From NCBI GenBank assembly GCA_013297865.1, contig JAAFIP010000008.1, positions 124,001 to 188,000 of the forward strand: a DNA stretch of 64,000 nt. Reading direction: 5' to 3'. Positions 10,255 to 29,645 of this stretch are shown in pieces. Origin of the DNA: Polaromonas sp. (GTDB taxonomy: Bacteria; Pseudomonadota; Gammaproteobacteria; Burkholderiales; Burkholderiaceae_C). How positions within the stretch are numbered: position 1 is the first letter of the stretch; each line of letters starts with the position of its first letter. The position numbers and the translations under genes were made by a program. The notes under the pieces are model-generated. The model ran no database searches. It saw nothing but the letters and a program-made list of their open reading frames with translations, and was not told the DNA's origin.

Positions 10255-10348
10255 GCCCTGGCACTTGGCGTGCACAGCTCCGCGGCTGTCCCCCGGCCTG
10301 CGGCCTCCTCCTTTATGCCGCTGCGCTGTGCACACCAAGCGCCAGGGC
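10255..10348 (-). repeat. Structured hairpin element E1 (94 bp, minus reading)
   Basis: Read on the minus strand, a 24-bp outer helix (ends GCCCTGG...CCAGGGC) encloses a conserved internal region (GCAGCGGCAT..AAGGAGGAG and GGGGGACAGCCGCGGA) and an inner hairpin GGCC-GCA-GGCC. GCGGC can also pair with GCCGC. Compared with E2 it has 16 differences, 14 of them forming seven compensated pairs. Its two non-Watson-Crick pairs are G-U on this strand but A-C on the other, so a minus-strand RNA is suggested. Confidence 0.75.
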
Positions 10349-10495: not shown

Positions 10496-10589
10496 GCCCC
10501 GGCGCTTGGGGTGAGTGGCGCAGCGGCATCAAGGAGGAGCCCGAAGGGCGGGGGACAGCCGCGGAGCCACTCACCCCAAGTGCCGGGGC
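10496..10589 (+). repeat. Structured hairpin element E2 (94 bp, plus reading)
   Basis: Inverted homologue of E1. The outer helix runs from GCCCCGG to CCGGGGC, the inner hairpin is GCCC-GAA-GGGC, and the internal sequence is the same as E1 except two unpaired bases. All outer pairs form, one as a G-U wobble on the plus strand. The orientation is divergent from E1, with 147 bp between them. Confidence 0.75.
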
Positions 10590-14967: not shown

Positions 14968-14997
14968 CCTTTCGCTAACCGCTTGAAGGAGTCCATC

Positions 14998-16275
14998 ATG
15001 AATACTGCAACCCTGACCGAAGCCCCCGCAGCAGTCGACAGTCTGCGCATCAACGGCGAGCGCCTGTGGGCGTCATTGATGGAGCTGGCGCAGATCGGTG
15101 CCACACCCAAGGGAGGCGTCTGCCGCCTCACGCTGACCGACCTGGACAAGCAGGGCCGCGACCTGGTGATTGGCTGGGCCAAAGAGGCCGGCATGACAGT
15201 GACCATCGACAAAATCGGCAACGGCTTCATGCGCCGCGCCGGGCGCAACAATAGCTTGCCGCCCATCATGACCGGCAGCCATATCGACACCCAGCCCACA
15301 GGCGGCAAGTTTGACGGCAACTATGGTGTGCTGGCTGGCATTGAAGTGGTGCGCACCCTGAACGACCACGGCATTGAAACCGAGGCCCCGATTGAAGTGG
15401 CCTTCTGGACCAATGAAGAAGGCTCGCGCTTTGTGCCGGTGATGATGGGCTCTGGCGTGTTTGCCAAGGCTTTCACCCTGGAGCATGCCTACGCAGCCAA
15501 AGACACCGAGGGCAAGTCGGTCAAAGACGAGCTGGCACGCATTGGCTACATCGGCGCGCAGGAGCCGGGTGACCACCCGATTGGCGCGTATTTTGAAACC
15601 CATATCGAACAAGGCCCGGTGCTGGAAGACAACGACATCACCATCGGTGTAGTGCAAGGTGTGCTGGGTATCCGCTGGTTTGACTGCACCGTGACCGGCA
15701 TGGAAGCGCATGCTGGCCCCACGCCTATGGCTCTGCGCAAAGACGCGCTGCAAGTGGCCACGCATTTGATGCAGGAGGTGGTAGCCAGCGCGCTGCGCCA
15801 TGCCCCGCACGGGCGCGGCACCGTGGGCATGGTGCAGGCATTTCCCAACAGCCGCAATGTGATTCCGGGCCGCGTGAAATTCTCGATGGACTTGCGCAAC
15901 AGCACCGACGCCTTGGTGGACCAAATGGTGGACGAGGTGAAAGCCTTTGCAGCTAAACTGAGCAAGAGCTCGGGTCTGGATATTCAGATCGAGATGGTGT
16001 CGAGCTATTCGGCGATTGGTTTTCATTCACCATGCATTGACGCGGTGGCGCGTGCAGCCAAGAAGCTGGGCTACACCAATATGCCAGTCGTCTCGGGTGC
16101 AGGGCACGATGCGGTGTATATGGCCCGCTTGGCGCCCAGCGGCATGATATTTATTCCCTGCAAGGACGGCATCAGCCACAACGAGATTGAAGACGCCAAG
16201 CCAGAACACATCACGGCGGGCTGCAATGTGCTGTTGCATGCGATGTTGGAGCGGGCTGGGGTGGTTCAAGGTTGA
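14998..16275 (+). CDS. hyuC: N-carbamoyl-beta-alanine amidohydrolase (beta-ureidopropionase, M20 type)
   Basis: 425 residues of the M20 peptidase / allantoate amidohydrolase family (HyuC/AmaB). Metal ligands are seen in GSHIDTQPTGGKFDGNYGVLAG (near residue 92), WTNEEGSRF (near 140), HIEQGPVLE (near 203) and a C-terminal GAGHDA (near 367). It would hydrolyse N-carbamoyl-beta-alanine to beta-alanine, CO2 and ammonia, the last pathway step. The preferred start ATG 14998 has GAAGGAG upstream. Allantoate or other carbamoyl substrates are possible for the family, but the gene order favours the pyrimidine role. Confidence 0.9.
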   Translation: MNTATLTEAPAAVDSLRINGERLWASLMELAQIGATPKGGVCRLTLTDLDKQGRDLVIGWAKEAGMTVTIDKIGNGFMRRAGRNNSLPPIMTGSHIDTQPTGGKFDGNYGVLAGIEVVRTLNDHGIETEAPIEVAFWTNEEGSRFVPVMMGSGVFAKAFTLEHAYAAKDTEGKSVKDELARIGYIGAQEPGDHPIGAYFETHIEQGPVLEDNDITIGVVQGVLGIRWFDCTVTGMEAHAGPTPMALRKDALQVATHLMQEVVASALRHAPHGRGTVGMVQAFPNSRNVIPGRVKFSMDLRNSTDALVDQMVDEVKAFAAKLSKSSGLDIQIEMVSSYSAIGFHSPCIDAVARAAKKLGYTNMPVVSGAGHDAVYMARLAPSGMIFIPCKDGISHNEIEDAKPEHITAGCNVLLHAMLERAGVVQG

Positions 16276-16352: not shown

Positions 16353-16426
16353 GGCGACAGAGCGTATGCCAAACGCCCTCATACTGGAGTACCAGAAATC
16401 GGTCGTTCGGCACACGCTCTATCGCC
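16353..16426 (-). repeat. Structured hairpin element A (74 bp, minus reading)
   Basis: On the minus strand a 23-bp outer helix, all positions paired (three as G-U wobbles), closes a 28-nt region ACCGATTTCTGG...CCAGTATGAGGG that contains an inner CTGG/CCAG hairpin. Element B has the same 28 nt with one change, but a stem differing by seven compensated pairs. Confidence 0.75.
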
Positions 16427-16506
16427 TTCACACAAGGTAGCGCACTACCGGTATTGAAATCCAGCGCTTTCAGGAAACTACGGGTAGCGCGCCAAGATGT
16501 GTACGA

Positions 16507-16580
16507 GGTGGGATTGCGTATGCAAATCGACCGATTTCTGGTACCCCAGTATGAGGGCGATTTGCATACGCAATCCCACC
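16507..16580 (+). repeat. Structured hairpin element B (74 bp, plus reading)
   Basis: Inverted homologue of element A, 80 bp away. The 23-bp outer helix is fully Watson-Crick (GGTGGGATTGCGTATGCAAA with its complement). The loop region matches A except one base in the inner tetraloop. The A/B arrangement (minus copy, spacer, plus copy) is the same as E1/E2 at the other end of the cluster. Confidence 0.75.
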
Positions 16581-16656: not shown

Positions 16657-17358
16657 CTACAACCCACATCCACGCAAAATCAACGACACCACATGCTCCG
16701 TCGCCCGAGCATGTTCCTTGGCGCTCAAATTTTTACGGCCTAGAACAGCAGACACCTGCACATCAAAGTCCGCATAGGTCTGCGTCGCTGCCCAAATGGT
16801 GAAAAACAAATGCATACCATCCACCGGGGCCATGCGCCCCGCGTCTACCCAGGCCTGCACAACGGCGGCCTTGCCTTGCACCAGCTTGCGCAGATCGGTG
16901 GACAGCAGCTCCTTGACCACCGGCGCACCATGTAGCAACTCGTTGGCAAACACCTTCGAGCCATCTGGCCGTTGGGCTGACAAAGCCATTTTGGCGCGTA
17001 TGTACTGCTCCAGCGCCTTGCGCGGGTCAGCGTCCAGTGTGATGCCGTGGGTAGGCACCAGCCAGTCGTTGAGAATGCGCGCCAGCACTGTGCGGTACAG
17101 CGCCTCTTTGCTGCCAAAGTAATAGTGCAAGTTGGCCTTGGGCAGCCCACTCGCCTGCGCAATGGCGGCCATGGTGGCGCCGCCAAAGCCTGCGCGCGCA
17201 AAAATGCTCTCTGCTGCCGCCAGAATCACGCGCTCGTTGGCCTGGCGGATCTGACCCTGGCTGCTGTCACTGTCCAGCGCCGGGTCAGCTTTGGCCTTGG
17301 CCTCGGGAGCGGTTCTCCTGGCTGTCACCACAGCATTTACTTTTGCGCTGCTTCCCAC
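16657..17358 (-). CDS. rutR: RutR-like TetR family regulator of pyrimidine use
   Basis: A 233-residue repressor with an N-terminal TetR HTH (about residues 39-90: ILAAAESIFARAGFGGATMA then GLPKANLHYYFGSKEALY) and a C-terminal ligand domain matching the RutR branch (WAATQTYADFD near the end). RutR binds uracil or thymine and releases its operator. Two sequences close to the RutR box occur at 10726 and 21122, in front of the catabolic and transporter units. It is the last gene of the minus-strand transporter operon; its start overlaps the end of the binding-protein gene by 22 bp. A GTG a few codons downstream is an alternative start. Confidence 0.82.
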   Translation of the reverse strand: MGSSAKVNAVVTARRTAPEAKAKADPALDSDSSQGQIRQANERVILAAAESIFARAGFGGATMAAIAQASGLPKANLHYYFGSKEALYRTVLARILNDWLVPTHGITLDADPRKALEQYIRAKMALSAQRPDGSKVFANELLHGAPVVKELLSTDLRKLVQGKAAVVQAWVDAGRMAPVDGMHLFFTIWAATQTYADFDVQVSAVLGRKNLSAKEHARATEHVVSLILRGCGL

Positions 17359-28523: not shown

Positions 28524-29645
28524 ATGCATTTTGACCATCTCCACAATCCGACCTTCCTGCAAGCCTGCCTGGGCCTGGCCACGCCCTACACCCCCGTGTG
28601 GCTGATGCGACAGGCGGGGCGCTATTTGCCAGAGTACTGCGCCACGCGCGCCAAGGCTGGCAGCTTCATGGGGCTGGCCACCAACCGCGACTTTGCCACC
28701 GAAGTGACCTTGCAGCCGCTGGCGCGCTATCCGCTGGACGCAGCCATTTTGTTCAGCGACATTCTCACAGTGCCTGATGCGATGGGGCTGGGTCTGAGTT
28801 TTGCGCAGGGCGAAGGCCCCCGGTTTGCGCACCCGGTGCGCGACGAAGCGGCCGTCAAGGCCTTGCAGGTGCCCGACATGCACAATCTGCAATATGTGTT
28901 CGACGCGGTGTCGTCCATCCGCAAAGCCTTGACGCAGGACGGCAAAAGCACGGTGCCTCTGATTGGCTTTTCGGGCAGCCCATGGACACTGGCATGCTAT
29001 ATGGTGGAGGGCGCAGGCAGTGACGACTACCGTCTGGTCAAGTCCATGCTGTATGCGCGGCCTGATCTGATGCACCATATGCTGGCGATCAATGCCGATG
29101 CGGTGGCCGCCTACCTGAATGCACAGATTGATGCGGGCGCGCAGGCGGTGATGGTGTTTGACAGCTGGGGTGGGGTGCTGGCGGACGGGGCTTTTCAGGC
29201 CTTCAGCCTGGCTTATACGCGCCGTGTGCTGGATCAGCTCAAGCGTACCGATGCCCAGGGCCGCACTGTGCCCCGGATCGTCTTTACCAAAGGTGGTGGT
29301 CTGTGGCTGCAGGAAATGAAAAGCCTGCCCTGCGACGTGCTGGGCGTGGACTGGACAGCCAATCTGCGCAGCGCACGGGCGCTGGTGGGCCATGGGCAGG
29401 GGGCCAAGGCGTTGCAGGGCAATATCGACCCGAATGTGTTGTTTGCGCCGCCTGCAGCGATTGAGGCCGAGGTAGGCAAGGTGCTGGCCGCGTTTGGTGC
29501 GCCGCATCAGGCTCAGGGCCCTGGCTCCACCCATATTTTCAACCTCGGTCATGGCATCAGCCAGCACACGCCGCCGGATCGTGTATCTGCTTTGGTGGCG
29601 GCGGTTCACAGCCAATCTCGGGCGATGCGGGCCGTCACAGCGTAA
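28524..29645 (+). CDS. hemE: Uroporphyrinogen decarboxylase
   Basis: 373 residues. It decarboxylates uroporphyrinogen III to coproporphyrinogen III in haem synthesis. Signatures: [15 protein letters not shown] (near residue 25), [16 protein letters not shown] (near 78), [16 protein letters not shown] (near 150) and VQ-like FDSWGG (near 213). ATG 28524 matches the conserved N-terminus; a longer in-frame start at 28401 is not supported. hemE followed by priA is a conserved order in Burkholderiales. Confidence 0.95.

Follow-up and report, generated by a model that had tools for sequence, protein, structure and literature searches.

Hairpins A and B, found in the genome of a freshwater-type Polaromonas sp., form a unit that we regard, with roughly even confidence, as a non-coding, non-autonomous interspersed element of REP/REPIN-like type, which is read as a folded single strand by a putative factor, has multiplied in some genomes and is kept at gene junctions in others. 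The fold, its upkeep and its strand preference were observed directly, as were the outward arrangement, the number of copies, the presence or absence at orthologous sites and the retention at junctions.

Structure of the A/B hairpin pair

The window is the whole stretch of DNA that was analysed (64,000 nucleotides). In it, the pair sits between two convergent genes, those of an M20-family amidohydrolase (end at 16275) and a TetR regulator (end at 16657). The features are as follows.

14983..16275, plus strand: M20-family amidohydrolase gene (flank, context), which stops 77 bp before A
16353..16426, minus strand: hairpin A, 74 bp, with a 23-bp stem, an A.G mismatch, C-C/G-G, an internal loop GATTT/TATGA and an apical CTGG-TACT-CCAG
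16378..16401, minus strand: core of hairpin A, 24 nt, CGATTTCTGGTACTCCAGTATGAG
16427..16506, no strand: linker between A and B, 80 bp, with symmetric arms GGTAGCGCACTACCGGTA ... TACGGGTAGCGCGC flanking a short centre
16507..16580, plus strand: hairpin B, 74 bp, with a 23-bp stem, the inner region as in A, and perfect pairing outside the core
16532..16555, plus strand: core of hairpin B, 24 nt, CGATTTCTGGTACCCCAGTATGAG
16657..17358, minus strand: TetR regulator gene with a TetR_C_3 (YcdC-like) domain (flank, context), convergent

The sequence-only reading had described A and B as two inverted 74-bp hairpins 80 bp apart, which was correct base for base, coordinates included. Its comparison of the two was reproduced when the stems were read again pair by pair. 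Each stem has 23 pairs, and seven positions differ on both sides with pairing kept; two further changes are from G.U to A-U, A holds three G.U pairs, and the 28-nt loop region contains a single difference (T/C). Folded as RNA, A reached -53.3 kcal/mol on the minus strand vs -38.7 kcal/mol on the plus strand, and with DNA parameters the values were -28.9 and -21.6, respectively. Folding z-scores against shuffles ranged from -6.1 to -12.4. The 24-nt core had two matches in the window at up to three mismatches and none in 100 shuffles, indicating that it is no chance match. A covariance model (R1), built from 48 hairpins, gave 73.5 bits for A, which lies outside its rows, and 78.2 bits for B, which is one of them. 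Elsewhere in the window, an 82-bp palindrome with 26-bp arms (28853-28934) has a weak covariance-model score and an unrelated core.

Copies in the host genome

With the complete A/B unit as query, 69 match rows were obtained in the host genome, linker included, and the core occurs there 61 times (31 forward and 30 reverse). The two hairpins of the sequence-only reading are thus real but not the full extent of the family, as 29 doublets were alignable in this genome, with loop spacings of 154 bp (23 doublets), 153 bp (2) and 155 bp (4). Most of these doublets combine two stem types. Relative to the ends or hairpin types, the linker centre occurred either way round, in about 11 copies each (e.g. 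L004 and L005), and six copies had neither; this is a motif count, in which one (L030) of a raw 12 and 11 was judged a false match. In two examples, 33 of 41 columns matched in reverse complement vs 21 of 40 in the direct comparison. The two orientations may represent inversion or end exchange, and the sole explanation that we can offer is that the two inverted arms recombined or exchanged strands.

No target-site duplication was detected among the 29 host copies (6-mers in 3/29, control mean 1.66; 8-mers in 0/29), which fits HUH-type movement rather than DDE. An autonomous form, with a gene between two hairpins far apart, was sought in eleven wide intervals, and no recurrent transposase was found. 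The longest open reading frames there presumably encode, judging from their translations, a host-like superoxide dismutase, a metallo-beta-lactamase-fold protein, a DNA methyltransferase and others.

The host genome contains another interspersed motif, about 45 bp long and often close to hairpin elements:

L035:708-756, L016:879-926, L039:4546-4596 and L039:11202-11251: copies of the motif AGCCCAATAGAATATCGCGGGAGCAGCTAT ... ATAGC

Conserved apex and covarying stem

The part that does not vary between genera is an internal loop, C-GATTT ... YATGA-G. The apical stem above it varies (CGG/CCG; variant forms in G259; CGC/GCG in G042; CTGC/GCAG in G069), and the stem of about 23-31 bp (median 28-29 aligned positions) drifts freely in sequence with its pairing kept, so that it is apparently the fold that counts.

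The covarying stem proposed from A and B was borne out in the family, and the copies without stem complementarity that had been named as evidence to the contrary were not encountered as a pattern. Of 250 distinct cores, 245 formed 18 or more of the 22 stem pairs, and 11 did so when given the 3' flank of a randomly chosen other copy; these cores had up to two mismatches and complete flanks, and one-base bulges were allowed. Covariation was scored in 45 hairpins. They came from a non-redundant set of 49, less four that had a bulge or offset, and this set had been drawn from 253 hairpins that were already well paired, so the 94.8% of paired positions is partly by construction. The other figures are the informative ones: 412 cells were changed on both sides vs 112 in shuffles, changes on both sides occurred at all 23 outer pairs, and the covariation score was 0.903, compared with 0.178 for shuffles and 0.13-0.16 for a slid alignment.

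Limnohabitans-type single hairpins (L096, L101, L104, L107, L112, L160-L162) have near-perfect stems of about 31 bp with copy-specific sequence, and share the outer flanks AATTTCCAATC ... GATTGACCAAAT.

Distribution among genomes

With one mismatch allowed, 20 of 299 genomes from the host's bacterial family had the core, and 14 of the 141 genera were represented. A scan of named genomes gave at least 111 stretches with the core, from Rhodoferax, Limnohabitans, Polaromonas and Curvibacter as well as Comamonadaceae/Burkholderiales bins. One core was located in a bin labelled 'Singulisphaera' (L163), probably on a contaminant contig.

A covariance search across the order had been suggested as a check. 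With strict filters and no more than 12 candidates evaluated per genome, settings under which diverged relatives may be missed, R1 did find matches, in 5 of 399 genomes, all of them within the host's own family (f1). In two of the five (G042 and G069), the GATTT/ATGAG loop is unchanged and the apical stem is a different one; orthologous copies in G259 show this too. Because of such variant stems, the core pattern behind the 20 of 299 genomes and the named-genome count gives an undercount. No match was found in plasmids (72,556 records) and phages (50,697 records), and the core was absent from viral contigs. The element was confined to one bacterial family in the samples searched, and no description of the A/B hairpin family was found in the open literature searched.

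Arrangement and gene settings

All 81 simple doublets were outward and none was inward; besides these, 80 singles and 8 other arrays were counted, with triplets among the non-doublets. By this outward inverted design, each DNA strand bears exactly one sense hairpin. The 153 placed groups comprised 101 between codirectional, 40 between convergent and 12 between divergent genes (background: 514, 125 and 127). These counts include related, hence non-independent, loci and omit a further 29 groups, of which 13 were at a contig edge, 12 had no called gene and 4 were called within a gene. Among 331 neighbouring gene ends, 203 were 3' ends.

Long stable hairpins close to 3' ends, in convergent more often than divergent settings, would suit bidirectional intrinsic terminators. 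We consider this highly improbable, as a T-rich tail was present on the sense side in 2 of 173 hairpins and on the antisense side in 11 of 173, a search for terminator-like sites in this region of the window found none, and about two thirds of the placed copies lie between codirectional genes.

Retention at gene junctions and change in place

Comparison of the neighbouring proteins revealed that the same junctions recur. From their translations, we take the genes to be boxB (3' end) and boxA (5' end; 13-14 loci), aldehyde dehydrogenase (ALDH, 3' end) next to DUF779 (5' end; 12 and 10 loci), parE and parC (5-6 loci), glyA and nrdR (4), rdgB and hemW (4 and 3), and a MoxR-type ATPase and an acetyltransferase (4), with others besides; some of these loci duplicate one genome under two handles (e.g. 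L062 = L200). Of these genes, only DUF779 was also traced with a Pfam model, in a search of its own.

The ALDH/DUF779 junction carries the element in at least six genera (g52, g114, g117, g125, g137 and g138), and in G113, G209 and G216 this copy is the sole one found. In hairpin A of this junction (11 loci, core directed against the operon), 19 of 22 pairs occur in at least two Watson-Crick types, and G.T mispairs outnumber A.C by 15 to 2; the values for hairpin B (8 loci) are 16 of 22 pairs and 11 to 1. No hairpin was found upstream of 30 other DUF779 loci, the best scoring ones in other genomes. Thus, the element was added at this junction once or a few times, or travels with the gene pair.

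In one genus (G079, G183 and G259), orthologous copies persist with linkers that can hardly be aligned. Twelve orthologous hairpins of G079 and G183 provided 288 pair sites: 237 were unchanged, 19 remained paired after changes on both sides, 22 had one-sided changes still paired via G.U, 10 were broken, and none was changed on both sides and unpaired. The paired changes were scattered, not in tracts. Two sites filled in G079 (350 and 371 bp) were empty in G183 (about 8 bp), with no recognisable duplication; they could reflect loss from G183 instead of gain by G079.

Quasi-palindrome correction yields matched changes in both arms without selection. If such template switching kept the arms complementary without any function, the arm-matched changes would need no selection and the retained copies no host benefit. 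We give this mutational artefact a low probability: alone, it leaves the conservation of the 24-nt core across genera and the excess of G.T on one strand (see below) unexplained, and changes dispersed along the stem and passing through G.U intermediates are not the tracts that it would produce.

The strand that folds

The strand-specific G-U pairs that had been noticed in A proved to be a property of the family, in which G.T mispairs outnumber A.C mispairs on the core-sense strand. The G.T:A.C counts were 86:31 for the host genome, 116:42 for relatives and 199:72 for named genomes, and per hairpin they were 32:4, 44:4 and 78:21, respectively. The arms were scored symmetrically; the relatives and named sets partly overlap and copies are related, so the events are not independent. 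When hairpins were sorted by crude coding-potential gene calls, the counts were 123:31 with both flanking genes (73 hairpins), 152:28 against them (84 hairpins), 81:19 in convergent settings (53 hairpins) and 28:5 in divergent settings (19 hairpins). The ratio is the same in every gene setting, so it is the element or its core that determines which strand folds, and not host transcription; on this basis, single-stranded DNA ranks above mRNA. The G.T excess by itself is no proof of DNA, since G.U in RNA is cheaper than G.T in DNA. No replication-strand bias of single hairpins was detected from local GC skew (37/79), which is a noisy test.

The sequence-only reading had further likened the read strands to RNA, and this part is not supported in the form given. 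The wobble asymmetry is as strong against both flanking genes as with them, and the single hairpins in codirectional settings do not preferentially run with the genes (16 sense, 24 antisense). For both reasons, folded single-stranded DNA is preferred over neighbouring mRNA. The mRNA of the flanking operon was considered as a candidate and is disfavoured by the wobble that is independent of gene direction, by the orientation of the singles and by hairpin A at ALDH/DUF779.

More generally, the sense hairpin could belong to a structured RNA made from its own promoter or as read-through mRNA, and act as a protein-binding site, an mRNA stabiliser or a small RNA. Compensatory changes via G.U intermediates and the far better folding of A in sense than antisense are typical of RNA, many copies lie at gene-to-gene junctions where transcription is expected, and the contexts favour 3' ends. 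We nevertheless regard a structured RNA as rather unlikely, though still a serious possibility, because the wobble asymmetry ignores the direction of neighbouring genes, even in hairpin A against the ALDH/DUF779 operon. In the window region, a promoter-like site was sought and not found. No Rfam family reached its gathering score in the window, and a lax threshold gave three microRNA-precursor models far below theirs.

Relation to RAYT/Y1 genes

Plain REP doublets (REPINs or BIMEs) moved by a RAYT transposase would account for the inverted doublets, the intergenic sites with 3' bias, the singles and triplets and the copy number. The host genome does hold one Y1 transposase gene (PF01797 search). 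A link to A/B was not detected: no core was present within about 1.5 kb of the Y1 genes at 30 loci, and no other large hairpins of the A/B family stood beside them, which answers the suggestion that RAYT genes be looked for nearby. Instead, 23 of the 30 loci bear GGGGTCAG/GGGGACAG, in inverted orientation on both sides in 14. The Y1 gene is about equally common in genomes with the core (18/20) and without it (22/28), although at least two of the 28 (G259 and G042) hold diverged forms. No GTAG/CGTC tag is common to the genera; the 3' flanks resemble CGTAG/CGTAC in the host and are different elsewhere. Movement of A/B as ordinary RAYT-dependent REPs therefore appears improbable.

A GGGGWSAS motif is described for TIRYT genes (PMC3733652). 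The GGGGTCAG/GGGGACAG flanks match this motif, which is absent from the A/B core. Since most of the 30 Y1 loci carry these flanks and none has the A/B core nearby, the resident RAYT-like genes own separate repeats. Y1 genes (L031/L039 and L210-L234) are mostly one per genome in the host's family, and many have AATTGGGGTCAGATCCCAATTA-type flanks and are TIRYT-like.

A second hairpin pair of the window was compared:

10255-10348 and 10496-10589: E1/E2, outward hairpin pair with the conserved inner region GCGGCATMAAGGAGGAG ... CGGGGGACAGCCGC

The common design that had been noted for the two pairs is confirmed, E1/E2 being likewise an outward pair with a conserved inner region. E1/E2 includes GGGGACAG, the motif type that flanks RAYT-like genes in the family. 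Thus, unlike A/B, E1/E2 may belong to the resident Y1 system.

Comparison with known repeats

MITEs of the ERIC and NEMIS (Correia) type are small intergenic fold-back repeats, and DDE-type MITEs usually show target duplications. A/B is also a small intergenic fold-back repeat, but no target duplication was detected for it. No covariance-model match to a structured RNA family of Rfam reached the gathering score.

REPINs and BIMEs are characterised as inverted structured units that are non-coding and extragenic, number many per genome, carry compensatory changes and are predicted to fold as single-stranded DNA or mRNA (PMC3116915). In A/B, the multiplied entity is likewise a doublet of inverted units with compensatory changes. 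A REPIN conserves the REP and forms one hairpin between two REPs, whereas each half of A/B is its own 74-bp hairpin with a conserved apex and a free stem. Furthermore, no RAYT gene among the 30 loci is flanked by the A/B repeat.

Some TIR families of TIRYT genes, termed TIRtrons, are self-complementary, dimeric and moderately abundant (PMC3733652), and A/B shares these three properties. The TIRs flank a tyrosine transposase gene in that description; the A/B hairpins do not, and their core is without GGGGWSAS. The same paper describes GTAG/CGTC-tagged REPs as palindromic, with 5-13 bp stems, compensated stem variants and G.T pairs (PMC3733652). A/B resembles them in its palindromic form, compensated stem changes and G.T pairs. 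It differs in size, with 74-bp hairpins and stems of about 23-31 bp against REP stems of about 6-13 bp in elements of 20-40 bp, and it lacks the tag and conserves the apex instead of the stem.

By host range, the nearest named repeat is the Beta-proteobacterial repeat element (BRE), which is described as interspersed, about 90 bp long, present in Polaromonas, Rhodoferax, Delftia and Bordetella, and unrelated to replication in orientation (PMC3110155). A/B is also interspersed and without replication-linked orientation; in this comparison by description, BRE differs in that it often forms tandem arrays and also occurs in Bordetella, a member of another family. A/B works like a REP-type repeat yet lacks the defining features of REP/RAYT membership that were tested.

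Proposed mechanism and meaning

Returning to the REP/REPIN-like element read as a folded single strand, we propose that a factor, putatively a protein, would recognise the apex of the folded strand, i.e. the internal loop C-GATTT/YATGA-G. Two potential tandem G.A pairs in this apex could form on the sense strand alone. The factor would require a long helix below the apex and not a particular helix sequence; with the helix sequence free, the stem may drift provided that both arms drift together. The single strand would more likely be DNA than mRNA, for example at a replication fork. The same recognition of the apex would spread or maintain the element, which may thus have multiplied in some genomes (about 30 doublets in the host) and been kept at particular gene junctions elsewhere, where the retained copies would have some host use. 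No mobilising protein for A/B was found; Y1_Tnp, the only HUH candidate searched for, is unlinked.

A more specific form of this proposal is tentative, and we place it well short of even probability. A/B would be a strand-discriminating DNA-hairpin signal, family-specific and non-RAYT, whose folded single-stranded DNA is read via the small internal loop with the stems drifting. It would spread in some genomes and elsewhere be a single copy held for long at one operon junction (ALDH/DUF779, boxB/boxA or parE/parC) by selection on the folded DNA strand, not on the operon mRNA. A purely selfish reading has most trouble with the selection for pairing in fixed copies that seem immobile, and an mRNA reading with the absence of any tie to the direction of transcription.

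Most bacterial palindromic repeats get filed as REPs moved by RAYTs. The A/B family has the doublet design of REPs, with conservation turned inside out (apex fixed and stem free) and no RAYT link. It has a measurable preferred folding strand, and several genera have copies fixed at shared junctions. This makes it a testable question what reads single-stranded DNA hairpins in these bacteria, and why some of the copies stay.
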